Assembly: GCA_015075625.1 (NCBI GenBank)
Contig: JABTTZ010000001.1
Location: forward strand, 1,860,001 to 1,924,000
DNA from: Anaerolineales bacterium
GTDB taxonomy: Bacteria > Chloroflexota > Anaerolineae > Aggregatilineales > UBA2796
DNA: 64,000 nucleotides
Reading direction: 5' to 3'
Positions 1,839 through 58,891 of this stretch are shown piece by piece (position 1 is the first letter of the stretch; each line of letters begins with the position of its first letter). The notes under the pieces were generated by a model. It did not search any database. It was not told the origin of the DNA and worked only from the letters and a program-made list of their open reading frames with translations. Made by a program: the position numbers and the translations under genes.

Positions 1839-2881
1839 ACGCCCCCCTTCTCATGATGTTGCGCCGCGAATTCCTTTCGCCGCTGCTGAACGCGGACGTA
1901 TTCCAAAATGAGGAAACACCCCCCCGCCGCGATCACGATTCCCGCTCCAACAATCAGGGCAGGTTCTAAGGGTACCTGGCTGATGATCAATGCTCCACAG
2001 CCCAAAAGAGCGCCCGCCACATAGATGGTGATCACCGCCACGCGGGGATGCAACCCCATTGCCACAAGACGATGGCTGGTGTGATCTTTCCCCCCTTGCG
2101 CCGGAGAACGTCCCTCTCGCAGGCGGGTGAAAGTGACCAGAGTCGTATCGAAAATGGGCATCCCCAACACAAGGACGGGAATCATCCACGAGGCAAGGGT
2201 CACTTGCGTTTGAAAGCGGAGTTTGATCCCCAAAACGGCGAGAAGAAAGCCGATTACCAGAGCGCCCATATCGCCCATGAAGGTGCGTGCCGGGTTGAAA
2301 TTATAGACAAGGAAGCCAAGCAGCGCCCCGCACAGCGCCGCCGAAAGCGTGCTGACCAACTCTTGCCCTTGCGAAGACGCCAAAATGAATAAGAAAAAGG
2401 CGGCAATGGCGCTGACACCCGCCGCCAAGCCATCCATGTTGTCCATTAGGTTGACCGCATTGATGATCCCTACAAACCACAACAGGGTGAGGGGAATATC
2501 CAAAAACCATATCCCAAACAGATCGACCCGAATCCCCGCCGCCATGACGCCGAACGCAGCTACCGCCGAGGCAAGGTATTTCTGGCTTGGTTTCAGTTCA
2601 TAGCGGTCATCCCAGAAGCCGACGACGGCGAGGAAGGTCGCCCCTAGTAAGATCGCCCCTAATTCCATCAGATGTTTGGGGAGCGGGATAAAAACGACCA
2701 ACGTGATCAAAAAGGCGAGGTAGATCGCCAGCCCACCCATCAGTGGAATCGGCTTGCGGTGGACTTTGCGAGCGTTCGGTTTATCAACCATCCCAATACG
2801 CAGGGCAAGCCGCCGTGTCAGCGGCGTCAACCCCACAGAGGCAGCGATTCCCACCGCAAAGATAGGCATGTAATCAGGCAC
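1835..2881 (-). CDS. WecA/MraY-family undecaprenyl-phosphate sugar-1-phosphate transferase
   Basis: Integral membrane polyprenyl-phosphate GlcNAc-1-phosphate transferase (WecA/TagO/MraY superfamily), which starts lipid-linked glycan assembly on undecaprenyl phosphate. Visible: about ten hydrophobic segments, the early DKPNARKVHRKPIPLMGG motif, the metal-binding NLMDNMDGLAAG motif around residue 145-157, and FMGDMGALVIG further on. Length near 350 aa fits WecA. The GTG at 2881 is chosen because a GAGGA Shine-Dalgarno lies six bases upstream; TTG at 2887 and ATG at 2869 are alternatives. First gene of a minus operon with the epimerase and GT4 enzyme. MraY itself is less likely because there is no mur cluster nearby. 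Confidence 0.88.
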   Translation of the reverse strand: MPDYMPIFAVGIAASVGLTPLTRRLALRIGMVDKPNARKVHRKPIPLMGGLAIYLAFLITLVVFIPLPKHLMELGAILLGATFLAVVGFWDDRYELKPSQKYLASAVAAFGVMAAGIRVDLFGIWFLDIPLTLLWFVGIINAVNLMDNMDGLAAGVSAIAAFFLFILASSQGQELVSTLSAALCGALLGFLVYNFNPARTFMGDMGALVIGFLLAVLGIKLRFQTQVTLASWMIPVLVLGMPIFDTTLVTFTRLREGRSPAQGGKDHTSHRLVAMGLHPRVAVITIYVAGALLGCGALIISQVPLEPALIVGAGIVIAAGGCFLILEYVRVQQRRKEFAAQHHEKGGV

Positions 2882-2914
2882 GGGCAATCCTCAGACAGAC
2901 ATACTTAGTGGGTA

Positions 2915-2943
2915 AGTATAGCGCGGCACAAGCCTGGCGTGAA
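2915..2943 (-). promoter_or_regulatory. Predicted sigma70 promoter of the wecA-like operon
   Basis: On the minus strand TTCACG (2943-2938) is followed after 17 bp by TATACT (2920-2915), about 30 bp ahead of the GTG start. The -10 and spacing are good, the -35 is a 4/6 match. Prediction from sequence only. Confidence 0.5.
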
Positions 2944-2965
2944 GGTGCGGTGTCTTTGATATCAA

Positions 2966-2985
2966 AAGCGGACGATAGTCCGCTT
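2966..2985. repeat. Perfect 8-bp inverted repeat with GATA loop
   Basis: AAGCGGAC, loop GATA, GTCCGCTT between the divergent wecA-like and yceI genes. A smaller related inverted repeat (GGACT-aca-GTCC) sits at about 3052-3063, close to the yceI start. It could be a regulator site or a leader hairpin; no T-run follows, so it is not a standard terminator. Confidence 0.45.
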
Positions 2986-3112
2986 CTCATCTGACACTCA
3001 TCTTTCTTCGGTAAGGGAAGGGGAAGGTTGCCTCATCTGTCTTACCGTAAACGGACTACAGTCCACTTTGGTGAACAGAAGCACCCATACAATACAGAGG
3101 AGCAGTCCAATC

Positions 3113-41994: not shown

Positions 41995-42150
41995 ACAGAG
42001 TATTTCCTCACCGTGATTTCATCGGTTTGATCCGAAATGGATTCGGAGACGATCATAGCAGCAGAGAAGCGGATGAGTGTCTTAATTTTGGTGAGAGTTT
42101 TTTCATCTCTCGCCTTTTCATCTCATATTCCGCCGCCGCTTGGAGCGTGC

Positions 42151-45755: not shown

Positions 45756-47078
45756 ATGATCCGCCGCCTGCTGCCCCTTTTCACAATTCTGGCTACCTAC
45801 CTCATCATCGGGGCGCTTTATGCCCTCTACACTCCGGCATGGCAAGCGCCTGATGAACCCGCTCACTACAACTACATCCGCCAGATCGTGCAGGGCTGCT
45901 GTCCGTTCATCGCGGCGGGGGATTGGGACAGCGCCTATCTGGAACGGATCAAGGCGGCAAAATTTGCCCCAGACGCGCTGGAGGATCGCCTTGATTCTAT
46001 GCAGTACGAAGATCACCAGCCACCGCTCTATTACGCCCTTCTGACGCCCGTTTTTGCCCTCGCCGGCGGCAGCCTTGCGGCGCTCCGGTTGGCGTCACTC
46101 ATCCTCGGCACGGGAGGGGTGATCGCCGCATGGGTGGGGGGGCGGATCGTCTTTCCGGCGGGGCGCTGGCTGGCGATCCTCGCCGCTGGCTTCGTCGCTT
46201 TTCTCCCGCAATACCTGGCGATCATGGGCAGCGTCAACAACGATTCGCTCGCCGTCGCCCTTTCTGGGGGGATGCTGGTTTGGGCGCTGCGCCGTCTTTT
46301 GCAGCCGGAAGCTCCCTCTCGGTGGTGGATTGCGGCGCTGTTGGCGGGTGCGGCGTGCCTGACGAAATTGACGATTTACCCCATCGTAATCATCCTCGGC
46401 GTGGCGGCAGTTCTCGCCGCATGGCGGGAGGGACGGCGCGGACTTGCCCTCTTGAGAGAGGCACTCCCCATCGCCCTGATCACCGTCCTGATTGCCGCTC
46501 CCTTCTGGCTGACAAACCTCAGCCGTTACGGGTTTCCCGATGTGTTGGCGCAAGCGGCACATGATCGCATTGTCGTGGGGCAGCCACAGACGGCGGATTA
46601 CATTGCCGCACACGGAGGGATGGGCTGGCTGGCAGACCTAACGAAAACGACCTTCCAAAGTTTTTGGGGACAGTTCGGCTGGATGGGCATTCCCATGACA
46701 GAGACGATTTATGGGGGACTGTTGGCGCTGACTGGGATCGCCTACGTCGGCGGCGTGACGGGACTGATCGTGTTCAAGGCGGCGCGGCGGCGGATTGCCC
46801 CGGCGCTGTTCGTCATGGGGGGGGCGCTGCTGGTGACGGCAGCAGCCTTTGCCTATTACAACACAAAATTTGTCCAGTTTCAGGGGCGCTACCTCTATCC
46901 GGCGCTTGTGCCGTTGGCGTTGGTGTTTGCGGGCGGGGTGGGAACGTGGATCGCCCTCCTCAGCGGGCGGTGGAGGGGTGGGCGCGTGGTGGTGGCAAGC
47001 CTCTTGGTGGTGGGGTTGGCAGCCTTTGCCCTCTATGTCTTGCTGCGCATCGTCTTGCCTGGGCTAAGGGTGAATTAG
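45756..47078 (+). CDS. GT39/DUF2142-like membrane glycosyltransferase
   Basis: Polytopic membrane protein of 440 aa, about eleven helices. Directly after the first helix it reads WQAPDEPAHYNYIRQIVQG, the PDE/H acidic loop of GT-C transferases related to GT39 and DUF2142; a second conserved YEDHQPPLYYALLTPV lies near residue 90. Ends in a short cytoplasmic tail without a soluble domain. GGAG lies six bases ahead of the ATG. With the preceding gene it forms a probable surface-glycosylation pair. Confidence 0.82.
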   Translation: MIRRLLPLFTILATYLIIGALYALYTPAWQAPDEPAHYNYIRQIVQGCCPFIAAGDWDSAYLERIKAAKFAPDALEDRLDSMQYEDHQPPLYYALLTPVFALAGGSLAALRLASLILGTGGVIAAWVGGRIVFPAGRWLAILAAGFVAFLPQYLAIMGSVNNDSLAVALSGGMLVWALRRLLQPEAPSRWWIAALLAGAACLTKLTIYPIVIILGVAAVLAAWREGRRGLALLREALPIALITVLIAAPFWLTNLSRYGFPDVLAQAAHDRIVVGQPQTADYIAAHGGMGWLADLTKTTFQSFWGQFGWMGIPMTETIYGGLLALTGIAYVGGVTGLIVFKAARRRIAPALFVMGGALLVTAAAFAYYNTKFVQFQGRYLYPALVPLALVFAGGVGTWIALLSGRWRGGRVVVASLLVVGLAAFALYVLLRIVLPGLRVN

Positions 47079-52343: not shown

Positions 52344-54689
52344 ATGACAAACCAACCAACAGCAGAAACACTCCCCATCATCGGGATGACCTGTGCCAAC
52401 TGCGCGGCAACCATTGAACGCAACGTCCGCAAATTAAGCGGGATCGTCAGCGCCGAGGTCAACCTTGCCAGCGAACGCCTGACGGTCAATTATGATCCTG
52501 CACTTCTGAGCCATGATGAAATTGTGGCGCGGGTACGTAAGGCGGGCTACGACGTACCAGAGGTAAAAGCGGGTGAAACAGCAGAAGATGCAGAGGCAGC
52601 AGCGCGTGCGGCAGAAATCGCACACCAAGAACGCCGCTTGTTGATTGGTGCAATGTTCACTGTGCCGTTGTTCATCCTGAGTATGGGGCGCGATTTGGGC
52701 ATTTTTGGCGCGTGGGCATGGCAACCGGGGGTGAACATCCTCTTTTGGGCGCTGGCGACGCCCGTTCAGTTTTATGTAGGGTGGGATTACTACCTCGGTG
52801 CATACCGCGCCCTCCGTGCCGGCAGCGCCAACATGGATGTTTTGGTGGCGTTGGGGTCGTCCGTTGCCTACCTTTACAGTGTGGTGATCACGCTTCTGCT
52901 GTTGAATCCCACGAGTGCGATGCCGCTTCATAGGGTGGGGGCGCATCATGTCTATTTCGAGACCGCCGCCGTGATCATCACGCTGATCGTCCTCGGCAAG
53001 CTGCTGGAAGTGCGGGCGAAGGGGCGCACCAGCGCGGCAATTAAAAAACTGCTTAACCTGCGCCCCAAAACGGCACGGGTTGTTCGTAATGGACAGGAGC
53101 TTGATCTCCCGATTGCCCATGTCATCGTTGGCGATACGGTGATCGTCCGCCCAGGCGAAAGTATTCCGGTAGATGGGACCGTTGTGGAGGGGTATAGCGC
53201 CGTTGACCAAAGCATGATCACGGGCGAGAGTTTGCCCGTGACGCGGACGGTTGGCGAGACGGTGATCGGGGCAACGCTGAACAAACAAGGGTTTCTCAAA
53301 ATCAGCGCAACGCGCATCGGGCGCGATTCTGCGCTGGCACAAATCATTCGGCTTGTGGAGGAAGCGCAAGGCTCGAAAGCGCCCATCCAACGCATCGTTG
53401 ATCAGGTGTCGGCTGTCTTTGTTCCAGCCGTGATCGGGATTGCCGTCCTCACTTTTGCCTTGTGGCTGATCGGCGGGGCGGGGCTGACCAGCAGTCTGCT
53501 GCGTATGGTCGCTGTCCTCGTCATTGCCTGCCCCTGTGCGATGGGCTTGGCGACGCCCACAGCGATCATGGTCGGGGTGGGCAAGGGCGCAGAACAAGGG
53601 ATTTTGTTCAAGAACAGCGCCGCCCTCGAAAAAGCCTATCAAATCAATGCCATCATTCTGGATAAAACGGGGACGATCACGCGGGGTGAGCCAGCCGTGC
53701 GGGAAGTCGTCATGGCGGGCGCTTGGGAAGGCAAAAGTGAAACCCTGTTGCGTCTTGCCGCCTCTGCTGAGCGGGGCAGCGAACACCCGCTTGGGGCTGC
53801 CGTTGTCGATGCGGCGCGGCGCATGGGGTTTGCCCTTGAAGAACCAACGAGGGTGGAAGCCTTTGCCGGACAAGGAATTCGGGCGGTTGTTGGCGGAGAA
53901 ACCATCCTGATTGGCAACCAGCGCTGGCTAGACACCGAGGGGGTCGCCCTTAACGGGCTTGAAGGGGACGCCGAACGTCTTCAAGGCGAGGCGCAGACCG
54001 TTCTTTGGGTGGCGGTAGGGGGCGAGGCACGTGGGCTGATCGGGGTTGCCGATACGGTGAAGGAGACCTCTGCCGAGGCGATTCGGGCGCTGCACACAGC
54101 GGGCTTGCAAGTCATCATGATCACCGGTGACAACGCTGCAACCGCGAATGCCATTGCCCGTGAGGTGGGCGTGGATCGCGTCATGGCGGAGGTTTTGCCC
54201 GCCGATAAAGTAGCCGCAGTCAAGCGCCTTCAGGCGGAAGGACTGGTTGTGGCGATGGTCGGTGATGGAATCAACGACTCGCCCGCGCTGGCACAAGCTG
54301 ATGTGGGCATGGCAATCGGGACAGGGACGGACGTGGCAATCGCGGCGGCTGATGTTACGCTGATGAGCGGCGATCTGCGCGGGGTGGCGAAGGCGATCCG
54401 CCTCTCGCGGGCGACGATGCGCGTGATTCGGCAAAATCTGGGGTGGGCGTTCGGCTATAACGTGGCGCTGATCCCCGTAGCGATGGGAGTCTTTGCCCTG
54501 ATCCCCGCTGCTCCAGACTTCCTCCGCCAGTTGAGTCCGATGTTGGCGGCGGGCGCTATGGCGGTGAGCAGTGTGAGTGTCGTGACGAATTCGTTAAAAT
54601 TAAAAACGGCATCGTTCCCGCCGCTGAAGGATTTCGCTCAAGATAATCCGAAATCCGCTCACCATCTTCCAACTGTCCAGTCTCAGTAA
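52344..54689 (+). CDS. copA: Copper-translocating P-type ATPase CopA with island-derived C-terminal tail
   Basis: P1B-1 copper exporter of 781 aa. Visible: one N-terminal HMA domain with GMTCANC (C17, C20), TGES, transmembrane CPC at 396-398 ([11 protein letters not shown]), phosphorylation D440 in DKTGT, GEHPLG-type HP motif as SEHPLG, and [16 protein letters not shown]. Homologues end shortly after the last-helix VVTNSLKL motif; here about 25 residues follow ([12 protein letters not shown] onwards) that are encoded by the antisense strand of the recombinase gene. The tail is therefore probably acquired by insertion of the island, leaving the catalytic part intact. Confidence 0.93.
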
Positions 54690-56841: not shown

Positions 56842-57018
56842 TTATCCTTTTTGTCTCTCTTCCAGTTCTTGCTCAGTGTCCTTCAAATGCTGTGATGTTT
56901 TTGCCCGTACAAAGCCTTTGATGAGCGCACGATAGGCATGATGAAAATCAATTCCGTTCTTTTCCTCTTTACGCTGGTGTACGTGAACTTGAAAAGGTGT
57001 GAATGGTTGGTCTGGCAT
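56842..57018 (-). CDS. Small basic ORF ahead of the recombinase (58 aa)
   Basis: Unrecognised 58-residue protein (starts MPDQPFTPFQVHVHQRKEEK, ends TEQELEERQKG), charged and helical in its second half. It stops six bases before the recombinase ATG, and the recombinase ribosome site lies in its last codons, so translation is coupled. AAAGGAG lies only two bases before the ATG, which is tight. By position a recombination directionality factor or regulator is possible, but no homology is seen. Confidence 0.5.
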   Translation of the reverse strand: MPDQPFTPFQVHVHQRKEEKNGIDFHHAYRALIKGFVRAKTSQHLKDTEQELEERQKG

Positions 57019-57042
57019 AACTCCTTTGCTACTGGTAGTAAA

Positions 57043-57078
57043 TAAAAAAGCCGTCAACGCCTATGAAGCATTGACGGC
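57043..57078 (-). terminator. Intrinsic terminator between promoter and recombinase operon
   Basis: On the minus strand GCCGTCAA (57078-57071), 13-base loop, TTGACGGC (57057-57050), then six T residues: a textbook intrinsic terminator. It points into the small ORF and recombinase, whose first codon is 25 bases downstream, so it acts as a leader terminator for them. Confidence 0.75.
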
Positions 57079-57184
57079 AAACGTCGCCCACGAAATAATT
57101 GCACGTTAGCCTTCGATGCTGTCTCTATCAGCGTCGCTGGTTAGCTCTCGGCGGGTGTTACCAGCACCTTCCGAGAGCGCAAAC
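57044..57184 (-). ncRNA. Candidate structured leader RNA / attenuator of the recombinase operon
   Basis: From a predicted start near 57184 to the T-run at 57044 the minus strand gives about 140 nt rich in pairing. An 8-bp stem GCTCTCGG/CCGAGAGC (57178-57171 with 57151-57144) encloses a GGTG/CACC hairpin whose loop CTGGT can pair with ACCAG just after the stem (a possible pseudoknot). Then come a GA-GCTG/CAGC-TC hairpin (about 57135-57115), an AACGT/ACGTT stem, and the terminator. It could be a stand-alone small RNA or an attenuator whose read-through turns on the recombinase. I do not recognise a known riboswitch class. Confidence 0.45.
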
Positions 57185-57221
57185 CTTAGAATTATATCAA
57201 TATTACCATAAAAATCTAAGG
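57184..57221 (-). promoter_or_regulatory. -10 box within a 7-bp inverted repeat (probable operator)
   Basis: TATAAT on the minus strand (57196-57191) lies between CCTTAGA (57184-57190) and TCTAAGG (57215-57221), a perfect 7-bp inverted repeat with a 24-base gap. The repeat covers the -35 place and the transcript start, as expected for a repressor operator. A second small inverted repeat CACCAA/TTGGTG is at 57228-57244. Confidence 0.5.
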
Positions 57222-57251: not shown

Positions 57252-57602
57252 TTATCTATAGTAGGTTGCCGCGTAACCGCGCCTATATTTGTGTTTTGAT
57301 GTTGGGTTGAGCAAGTCACTAAGTCCAACCAAGAATTTCGCAAAGGAAGTAATGAACGGGGCGCGATGCTCATAGCGCCATAAGCGTTGTTCTTCTTGAA
57401 GGAGAAGATATTGGTACAGATTGCGTGGTTTAGCGAGGCGTTTTCTCTTTGCCCATCGCACAAGTTGAGCAAGATCATTGCGACGGTGCAATAAGTGACA
57501 CGCTGACCAATATGTATCTAGACTTGTTTGGAGGGAGTTGTAGTGCTGGTACTGCTTGAGAAGCGAATCTGGCATATCGAGTCTGAATCTAGCAGGACTC
57601 AT
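57252..57602 (-). CDS. Hypothetical island protein, 116 aa
   Basis: Unrecognised, basic, aromatic-rich helical protein (SLLKQYQHYNSLQTSLDTYW, WAKRKRLAKPRNLYQYLLLQ, AATYYR at the end). Lies 46 bp behind the xre gene on the same strand. Codon use and lower GC agree with the island. No function can be offered; no clear ribosome site. Confidence 0.55.
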   Translation of the reverse strand: MSPARFRLDMPDSLLKQYQHYNSLQTSLDTYWSACHLLHRRNDLAQLVRWAKRKRLAKPRNLYQYLLLQEEQRLWRYEHRAPFITSFAKFLVGLSDLLNPTSKHKYRRGYAATYYR

Positions 57603-57648: not shown

Positions 57649-58008
57649 CTATTCTGAGGAGTGTCGCTTTATCGTATCTGAAATAAGCTGTACTGCTTGA
57701 ATAGCTGCCTGCTTATCCTCTTGGGTAGGAAGTGTATGAAACTCTTGGAGCAAGAGTTGGTCAAGATCATCTACCTGAAAGTCGCCTTCAAAAAAATATG
57801 AGACAGGCACACCTAATACACGAGCAAACGTTGGAAGTTCTGTGGCAGGTAACTTCCGTTTGCCGTTTTCGTACTCTGAGACTGCTTTTTGATCGCGCTT
57901 AACGGCCTCGGAGAATGACTCTTGAGACATGCCGATACGTTCGCGGGCGCGACGAATGCGTAAGCCTAATTCAACTTGATCCACAGACACAATATTCCAA
58001 TTTAACAT
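57649..58008 (-). CDS. XRE-family transcriptional regulator
   Basis: DNA-binding regulator of 119 aa. An N-terminal Cro/C1-type helix-turn-helix (about 13-70: LRIRRARERIGMSQESFSEAVKRDQKAVSEYENGKRKLPATEL, LARVLGV-like end) is followed by a short acidic helical tail. Probably represses island genes; the 29-bp palindrome at 58068-58096, 60 bp ahead of its start, is its likely site, and the inverted repeat at 57184-57221 is another candidate. Start ATG at 58008 has only a weak ribosome site. Confidence 0.88.
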   Translation of the reverse strand: MLNWNIVSVDQVELGLRIRRARERIGMSQESFSEAVKRDQKAVSEYENGKRKLPATELPTFARVLGVPVSYFFEGDFQVDDLDQLLLQEFHTLPTQEDKQAAIQAVQLISDTIKRHSSE

Positions 58009-58067
58009 AAAAACCTATTGCGAGAATACCAAGAATCCGCTAGACTGTTTATATCGTTTTCGCCATA

Positions 58068-58096
58068 GTTTCTTAGTTGAAATTCAACTAAGAAAC
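58068..58096. promoter_or_regulatory. 29-bp perfect palindrome, probable XRE operator
   Basis: GTTTCTTAGTTGAA, one central A, TTCAACTAAGAAAC: two perfect 14-bp arms. It lies between the minus-strand xre gene and a plus-strand mini-ORF, so a bound repressor could control both. The strongest inverted repeat of the island. Confidence 0.7.
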
Positions 58097-58135
58097 CTCG
58101 TCCTGTTCACTGAGTTGATATGAGGAGCGTGTGCA

Positions 58136-58168
58136 ATGGCACTCGATCACGGTGGCGGCGGTTCATAG
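58136..58168 (+). CDS. Ten-codon mini-ORF (MALDHGGGGS)
   Basis: ATG GCA CTC GAT CAC GGT GGC GGC GGT TCA TAG, with GAGGAG eight bases before the ATG, between the palindrome and an intrinsic terminator on the same strand. The layout of ribosome site, short frame and terminator suggests a real small transcript encoding a peptide, or a small RNA that only looks translated. Confidence 0.4.
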   Translation: MALDHGGGGS

Positions 58169-58195
58169 CACTTGTAACCGTCAGTAGTGGAAATG

Positions 58196-58223
58196 GGCAA
58201 CAGTCTTTGGCTGTTGCCTTTTT
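58196..58223 (+). terminator. Intrinsic terminator of a short plus-strand transcript
   Basis: GGCAACAG, loop TCTTTGG, CTGTTGCC, then TTTTT: a perfect 8-bp stem and U-tract on the plus strand. The only plus-strand content ahead of it is the mini-ORF region. It also falls just behind the minus-strand gene at 58226, but the T-run serves the plus strand. Confidence 0.75.
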
Positions 58224-58225
58224 AG

Positions 58226-58891
58226 TTACCACTCCCACTTAAAGATATAGCCTTCATATAAACGCGGTTTGTTGACTTCCCATGTATAGGAAATGCGTCC
58301 GTCAGGGAAATGTGTCTCGTGTTGCACCCCTAATTGATGTGAACGTTTTAGATTGTTTTCCACAATAGCTACGTTTCTTGGAAGACGATCTTTGGGGAAA
58401 ATAATCCTTGCGGTTAGTACCTTCATAGGATGGTCAACTTGAATTTGAAATGTCTCATTATTAGTCAAAAAACCATTTTCAATGGTGCGCTCGATGAAGA
58501 TTTCTTCCTCCATGCCTTTTCGATAGTTCTGGCGGAGGGATATAAGTACAAAATGACGATAGCCTTCTTGGTATATGTCTACTGGAAAACCGGGTGAACA
58601 TTTATAATCGGCAAAGATACTTCCATCGCCCCAAATCTGATCCTGAATAGCAAATACATCGTCGCGCAAAAATATCACCTTCTGGCGCTTAGTATGCACC
58701 GCAACTCTGCCCTGCGAATCAAGAAGCTCTAGGGTAGCTTCGTGATGATTAACTCGATACAGTCCGTGAAAACGCGATTCTCGCCAAAATCGCAAGACTT
58801 CGGCGAACACTAGGCGAACAAGCTCTGAATTCACAAGAACTGAGAGGAGGGAAAGATTTTCAGATGTTGATGAGGCGGGCGGTTGTGACAT
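58226..58891 (-). CDS. Hypothetical island protein, 221 aa, beta-rich
   Basis: Not recognised. A helical N-terminus (about 10-38) is followed by a long beta-rich part with many aromatic residues, ending SYTWEVNKPRLYEGYIFKWEW. Paired strands such as VQHETHFPDGRISYTWEV suggest a sandwich fold. It lies between the regulatory region and hsdM, divergent from hsdM by 98 bp. It may belong to the defence cargo, but that is only by position. Confidence 0.65.
   Translation of the reverse strand: MSQPPASSTSENLSLLSVLVNSELVRLVFAEVLRFWRESRFHGLYRVNHHEATLELLDSQGRVAVHTKRQKVIFLRDDVFAIQDQIWGDGSIFADYKCSPGFPVDIYQEGYRHFVLISLRQNYRKGMEEEIFIERTIENGFLTNNETFQIQVDHPMKVLTARIIFPKDRLPRNVAIVENNLKRSHQLGVQHETHFPDGRISYTWEVNKPRLYEGYIFKWEW

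Follow-up and report, generated by a model that had tools for sequence, protein, structure and literature searches.

The element described here is a short leader that precedes a recombinase operon in a 64,000-nucleotide (nt) stretch of contig JABTTZ010000001.1 (hereafter the window), taken from a Chloroflexota genome of 4.68 Mb. The leader, a small open reading frame (ORF B) and a large serine recombinase gene all lie on the minus strand (Table 1). A TATAAT box (57196-57191) is flanked by CCTTAGA (57221-57215) and TCTAAGG (57190-57184), and the -35 element is weak (CTTAGA, with a spacer of 18 nt). From these features transcription is expected to start near 57184, giving a predicted leader of about 140 nt (about 57184-57042) that ends in an intrinsic terminator. 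The distance from the U-run to the ATG of ORF B (57018), which is preceded by AAGGAG, is 24 nt and leaves no room for a second promoter. A preliminary description of this DNA had thus read the locus correctly in three respects: the -10 box set within a 7-bp inverted repeat, the textbook terminator just before the first ORF, and the lack of space for a good promoter between the two. The nearest homologues do not share the inverted repeat itself. A sigma-70-type promoter scoring at least 9/12 was found just 5' of 54 of the 91 homologous RNAs described below, compared with 11.5% of shuffled sequences. In the family, the first start codon preceded by a Shine-Dalgarno sequence lies at a median of ~33 nt past the RNA, and about 13-45 nt past the terminator in most members. 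Since this spacing leaves too little room for a promoter between RNA and gene, the downstream genes must be transcribed by read-through of the terminator.

Table 1. Features of the leader and of the recombinase operon in the window.
Feature	Position	Strand	Basis or remarks
Large serine recombinase, 759 aa, Resolvase PF00239 + Recombinase PF07508	54556..56835	minus	
ORF B, 58 aa, first ORF of the regulated operon, family 'IDxxxAYxALIxG'	56842..57018	minus	
Intrinsic terminator, 13-pair stem, 3-nt loop, U-run (GCCGUCAAUGC-UUC..GGCGUUGACGGC-UUUUUU, 57078-57042)	57042..57078	minus	Fold; kept or swapped for another terminator hairpin in homologues
P3 region	57079..57106	minus	Window diverges from the AUUnUAnCA loop motif seen in most homologues; region lies inside the antiterminator loop
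P2 and closing helix URACC/GGCUR, with conserved A.C wobble position	57107..57143	minus	Covariation; phage-only model match 57106-57179
Antiterminator 5' strand (3' half of P2 plus GGCU)	57108..57124	minus	Alternative partner of terminator 5' arm 57078-57064
Conserved UAACC (URACC), 5' strand of the P2-closing helix	57139..57143	minus	Conservation, covariation
P1, GCUCUCGG/CCGAGAGC stem around hairpin GGUG-CUGGUAA-CACC	57144..57178	minus	Fold and covariation, Chloroflexota and phage sets
Promoter region	57184..57221	minus	TATAAT -10 within CCTTAGA/TCTAAGG inverted repeat, weak -35; sequence and family promoter statistics
ORF A, 116 aa, basic helical protein, just upstream of the RNA	57252..57602	minus	

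The window RNA has a minimum free energy (MFE) of -59.9 kcal/mol (z = -4.2 against dinucleotide shuffles), and its fold contains the stem enclosing a hairpin that had been proposed earlier for this ~140-nt RNA. A blastn search of 101 related genomes returned two relatives, of 90% and 70% identity. A covariance model built from three sequences (R1) matched at least 26 of 154 genomes of the order, with up to three matches per genome, and a model built from 31 cores from Chloroflexota only (R2) matched at least 60 of 396 genomes of the class and at least 24 of 400 of the phylum, all of these counts being lower bounds because only a few candidates were scored per genome. In total, about 90 homologues were collected across Chloroflexota. 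The window genome holds a single copy, located on the mobile element, and a housekeeping RNA was rejected for this reason. Within the order, a large serine recombinase gene follows every RNA whose downstream sequence is long enough; it lies on the same strand, separated from the RNA by 0-400 nt or by one small ORF, and these recombinases fall in clearly different subfamilies. Among 91 loci, a serine recombinase is encoded within 4 kb downstream in 62 and a tyrosine recombinase nearby in 13, while other Chloroflexota RNAs precede ParM-like or Bro-N-like genes. The variety of recombinase subfamilies and of other gene types behind the RNA indicates that it does not track one enzyme.

The family consensus consists, from 5' to 3', of P1 (~8 pairs) around a GUGC....AACAC hairpin, URACC, P2, GGCUR, a small P3 and the terminator; the P3 loop motif AUUnUAnCA is present in 78 of 85 homologues. 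The preliminary description had made its proposal depend on covariation among homologues, and this was found, strongly in P1 and P2. In the alignment of 31 cores, two-sided changes occur at 20 of the 31 pairs, and 90.6% of cells are paired, a share reached in 0 of 500 shuffling trials, against 84.1% after shuffling and 26-53% in slid controls. P1 pairs 2-7 covary both in the Chloroflexota set and in the phage set presented below (p=0.0005, P values being indicative only, as the family members are related). URACC and GGCUR form a helix that closes P2, in which a near-invariant A.C wobble is replaced by G.U in two members and by A-U in three. The pair beside ACC/GGC covaries in the phage set (A-U 44, C-G 10, G-C 4; 80% paired versus 54% in shuffles, p=0.0005). 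A further element suggested earlier, a loop-3' pseudoknot (CUGGU/ACCAG), was rejected: ACC is nearly invariant, and the pseudoknot is unsupported because the loop varies without compensation (CUGGAAA, CUUCCAA, UUGUGAG, CUACGAA). A structured, covarying core with conserved nucleotides is therefore present in the 5' leader, as in riboswitches.

We then considered the terminator. In most members from the order, its 5' arm can pair alternatively with the 3' half of P2 plus GGCU; in members with unrelated terminators, the partner is the 5' half and loop of P2, as for CGCUGUGGGC and GCCCACAGCG in locus L172. Over 62 non-redundant RNAs, the complementarity between the terminator 5' arm and P2 was above that of shuffles (Fisher, 8e-8 and 6e-11), and the signal persisted in the order alone (1e-8, with p<0.05 for the window itself) and in the class alone (7e-5). 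As internal controls in the same 62 RNAs, complementarity of the arm to P1 or P3 gave no signal (p about 1), and an antiterminator built from either was rejected on this basis. When the window transcript was cut before the 3' arm of the terminator, the MFE structure was the antiterminator hairpin (-44 kcal/mol), while the full-length transcript favoured P2 together with the terminator (-56.7 kcal/mol). As the two conformations are mutually exclusive, the RNA is predicted to be an attenuator, and the computations provide each of its parts: a promoter, a terminator ahead of the first gene and a competing antiterminator.

The preliminary description had left the choice between attenuation or riboswitch-like control and a small RNA (sRNA) gene. 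Covariation and the exclusive antiterminator favour the former. A stand-alone, trans-acting sRNA ending at the terminator, with a role for instance in element transfer or copy number and with the recombinase transcribed by leak or from elsewhere, would account for the promoter proper to the RNA, the strong terminator, the discrete 140-nt transcript that is predicted and the few loci in which no recombinase follows. However, the short spacing between terminator and start codon leaves no promoter room in most members, the complementarity of the terminator arm is specific to P2, and the phage copies overlap ribosome-binding sites or start codons, an arrangement sensible only in cis. We consider an sRNA improbable, and less likely than a cis-acting leader.

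The phage copies were retrieved with a pattern consisting of the P1 hairpin and CURACC only, GGCU being left out. This pattern matched more than 120 IMG/VR contigs; lambdoid tail-gene false matches were filtered, and 108 non-identical copies were obtained once P1 pairing was required. In 103 phage representatives, GGCU was found 14-44 nt past CURACC in 81% of cases, compared with 11% of shuffles. GGCU either forms part of the start codon or abuts the Shine-Dalgarno sequence, which lies in or beside P2; in 53 of 83 copies it is included in AUGGCU or GUGGCU. When GGCU is in the start codon, the closing helix URACC(A)/(U)GGCUR buries that codon. The genes that follow encode mostly homing endonucleases of the HNH, NUMOD, GIY-YIG or AP2 types, with single cases of Bro-N, MT-A70 and a regulator. 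Mycobacteriophage Che8 and some 90 relatives from M. smegmatis carry the RNA, as do Rhodococcus phage ReT1v-1 and Arthrobacter phage Phrank15, in which it lies directly ahead of the annotated HNH endonuclease gp79. The leader is located at about 46410-46475 of the Che8 sequence NC_004680 and at about 42075-42150 of the Phrank15 sequence PQ362680. Streptomyces plasmid p-XQ-29-C also carries the RNA (L417 1201-1276, 39.6 bits), just before a gene with an FtsK/SpoIIIE domain; two other plasmid matches (L418, L419) did not hold up. A blastn search of phages and plasmids with the window RNA gave no relative, and a first viral pattern, GCTAACCANCNACGCTG, matched unrelated coding sequence only. The control of a recombinase, as initially suggested, is thus too narrow a description: the RNA is common to the leaders of phage homing endonucleases.

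The inverted repeats and the location in mobile elements might also suggest that the conserved sequence works as DNA, for instance as an attachment or homing site or as a cruciform. Against this stand the fixed orientation of the sequence relative to the gene, with a promoter upstream and a terminator or start codon downstream, and the antiterminator complementarity. Moreover, in the window and in some relatives it is the 3' end of the recombinase gene, not the RNA, that abuts a chromosomal gene. We regard a DNA site as extremely improbable.

To determine whether the phage and Chloroflexota RNAs belong together, we compared their models. Of 62 phage loci, preselected by the P1 pattern, nearly all gave an R2 score at the motif. 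The reciprocal test, free of this bias, used a model built from phage RNAs only (R3), which recovered most Chloroflexota RNAs. Applied to the whole window genome, R3 gave a sole significant match, at 57106-57179 (52.4 bits, E=5e-8); the next one was insignificant (L421, G000:C1:1289241-1289336, E=0.06). No R3 match was found in four recombinase loci that lack the RNA (L004-L007). Among the weak R1 matches first judged to be false positives (L088, L091-L094), L088, L091 and L092 were weakly matched by the phage model too. That each model finds the RNAs of the other set indicates a single core associated with two expression platforms, a terminator version and a start-codon version, each computed to be exclusive with the core as expected for a riboswitch.

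No Rfam 15 family, T-box, riboswitches and published candidate motifs included, gave a relevant match to the window, Chloroflexota or phage loci at gathering or permissive thresholds, in agreement with the initial failure to assign the RNA to a known class. The permissive scan of the window returned only Teg23, below threshold and via the terminator hairpin. A T-box leader was rejected, there being no Rfam match and no conservation of the P2 sequence as UGGN. We found no paper describing this RNA in the open literature, subscription papers and supplements lying outside the search. These sequence comparisons define what is in all likelihood a previously uncatalogued class of leader RNA of mobile DNA.

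Our proposal, to which we assign a probability of roughly 0.78, is that the region encodes a structured 5' leader for the operon of ORF B and the recombinase, and that this leader attenuates transcription in cis and represents a new RNA class. The computations show a conserved structure, exclusive pairings and a core shared by two platforms. After initiation near 57184, P1 would fold first, followed by P2, closed by the UAACC/GGCUA helix. As long as P2 stays folded, the terminator hairpin would form and RNA polymerase would halt 24 nt ahead of ORF B (OFF). Should P2 not be held, 57124-57108 would pair with 57078-57064, no terminator would form and the recombinase would be transcribed (ON). In phages, the P1-URACC-P2-GGCU core is fused to the ribosome-binding site, the folded P2 again being the predicted OFF state. 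The most likely function is that of a riboswitch-like leader which, with P2 folded, holds DNA-cutting and DNA-recombining enzymes in check, and which presumably limits their synthesis until an inducing condition is encountered.

Several observations weigh against this proposal. The closest recombinases (L004-L007, 64-68% identity) do without the RNA. Pairing between P2 and the terminator is absent from the MFE structure of the truncated RNA in L137, L152, L155, L167 and others, and several copies from the phylum have no evident terminator. Finally, in L172, L173 and L177 the RNA is followed by a tRNA gene, and the integrase, where present, lies upstream.

The unpaired and apical nucleotides (GUGC...AACAC, URACC, GGCUR, UnUAnC) are kept across phyla and in both platforms. 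This conservation, together with the existence of two platforms, speaks for a sensed ligand or factor, which would stabilise or release P2 through the conserved P1/P2 nucleotides, with OFF as the probable ligand-bound state. A device without sensor would be a constitutive brake that lets toxic enzymes of DNA cutting or recombination be made at a low, leaky level, or else a simple RNA thermometer. The target enzymes are potentially harmful, and T-even phages mask the ribosome-binding sites of homing endonucleases with simple hairpins (PMC2988022); however, a constant brake needs neither unpaired nucleotides conserved across phyla and platforms nor a maintained competing antiterminator, and we hold it to be unlikely.

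A protein of the element could also act on the RNA. ORF A is encoded directly upstream of it in 24 of the 91 loci, nearly all from the window's order, and has conserved basic and aromatic positions. Its product might bind P1/P2 and tip the attenuator, as RAT-binding antiterminators or translational repressors do. One would expect a dedicated partner to accompany the RNA, yet most copies from the class and phylum and all inspected phage copies are without ORF A; moreover, its AlphaFold2 model (helical, mean pLDDT 87) gave no significant structural match in the PDB. We find this role distinctly unlikely for the family, ORF A being a possible protein partner in the window's order only. Returning to a sensed signal, the broadest form of our proposal is a large riboswitch-like class, present in phages and integrative elements of several phyla, in which one shared host or infection signal gates serine and tyrosine integrases and HNH/GIY-YIG homing endonucleases at transcription or translation. 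We advance it tentatively, at somewhat short of even odds.

Other features of these loci deserve mention. The ORF B pattern IDxxxAYxALIxG is kept before several recombinases, including ones without the RNA. In L004-L007 (around 2500-3000; 200-720 in L005), ORF B is separated from the recombinase by an ORF with a helix-turn-helix (HTH) motif ('SPAQAAEIAGCH'), as though the RNA had been replaced by a protein regulator. The recombinase gene of the window overlaps a convergent copA-type P-ATPase gene by 134 bp (54556-54689), and the L004-L007 recombinases also end at a P-type ATPase gene. This suggests that the window's recombinase group integrates at the copA 3' end and carries the att site within the 3' end of its own coding sequence. 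Upstream of the RNA, 57649-58891 holds an XRE-type HTH gene and a gene for a 221-aa protein without Pfam match, both of which recur near the RNA in several relatives. In L172, L173 and L177, all from one genus, the tRNA gene lies ~150 nt past the RNA, a tyrosine integrase is found upstream in two, and the terminator 5' arm is perfectly complementary to P2 (10 bp). In L142, L152, L167, L179 and L182, a ParM/actin-like gene directly follows the RNA and a serine recombinase lies farther downstream, as in integrative plasmid-like elements. At the phylum level, the RNA of L198, L204, L207 and L209 precedes Bro-N/antirepressor-like ORFs, with no clear terminator. In L065, L071, L072, L078 and L084, a small GGGCnnnnGCCC-like hairpin lies between the U-run and the Shine-Dalgarno sequence GAAAGGAG; it is weak or missing in the window and may stabilise the 5' end or contribute to the control.

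To our knowledge, how integrases and homing endonucleases of phages and mobile islands are silenced and switched on is understood, for the most part, only in a few systems with protein repressors. Leader structures decide terminator read-through in the HK022 put RNA, which acts directly on RNA polymerase, and in the BglG-LicT RAT, a short protein site. Read-through would likewise be controlled by the leader here, but the core, the genes and the switching of platforms differ. The RNA resembles riboswitch classes with transcriptional and translational platforms in that a leader core is coupled to a terminator/antiterminator or to a sequestered start, with OFF when the core helix forms. Unlike them, it targets enzymes of mobile DNA, not metabolic genes, and has no Rfam match. 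The closest functional parallel is provided by T-even phages, in which the ribosome-binding sites of homing endonuclease genes (I-TevI, segB, Aeh1 mobE) are sequestered in hairpins (PMC2988022), as they are in the phage copies of this RNA. Whereas the T-even hairpins are individual, unrelated and relieved by promoter choice (PMC2988022), the present RNA has one conserved, covarying core with fixed motifs, occurs in many phages and integrative elements, and also exists in a version acting through a transcription terminator. The Lacto-int and STAXI motifs, too, are candidate structured RNAs, located in phages and mobile elements close to genes for integrases or for DNA handling (Weinberg 2010, PMC2864571). 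As described there, STAXI consists of tandem pseudoknots and Lacto-int is restricted to Lactobacillales and phages, and neither description contains a P1-URACC-P2-GGCU core or a terminator/start-codon duality.

If our proposal is true, mobile DNA would be subject to a general RNA checkpoint, in which one core placed before both types of enzyme works through two platforms. The RNA would then represent a new orphan class of riboswitch-like elements, and since cultured phages carry it (Che8, which grows on M. smegmatis mc2 155, and Arthrobacter phage Phrank15), the question of the ligand is directly testable. The RNA may in addition offer a natural control element for the large serine recombinases used as tools.
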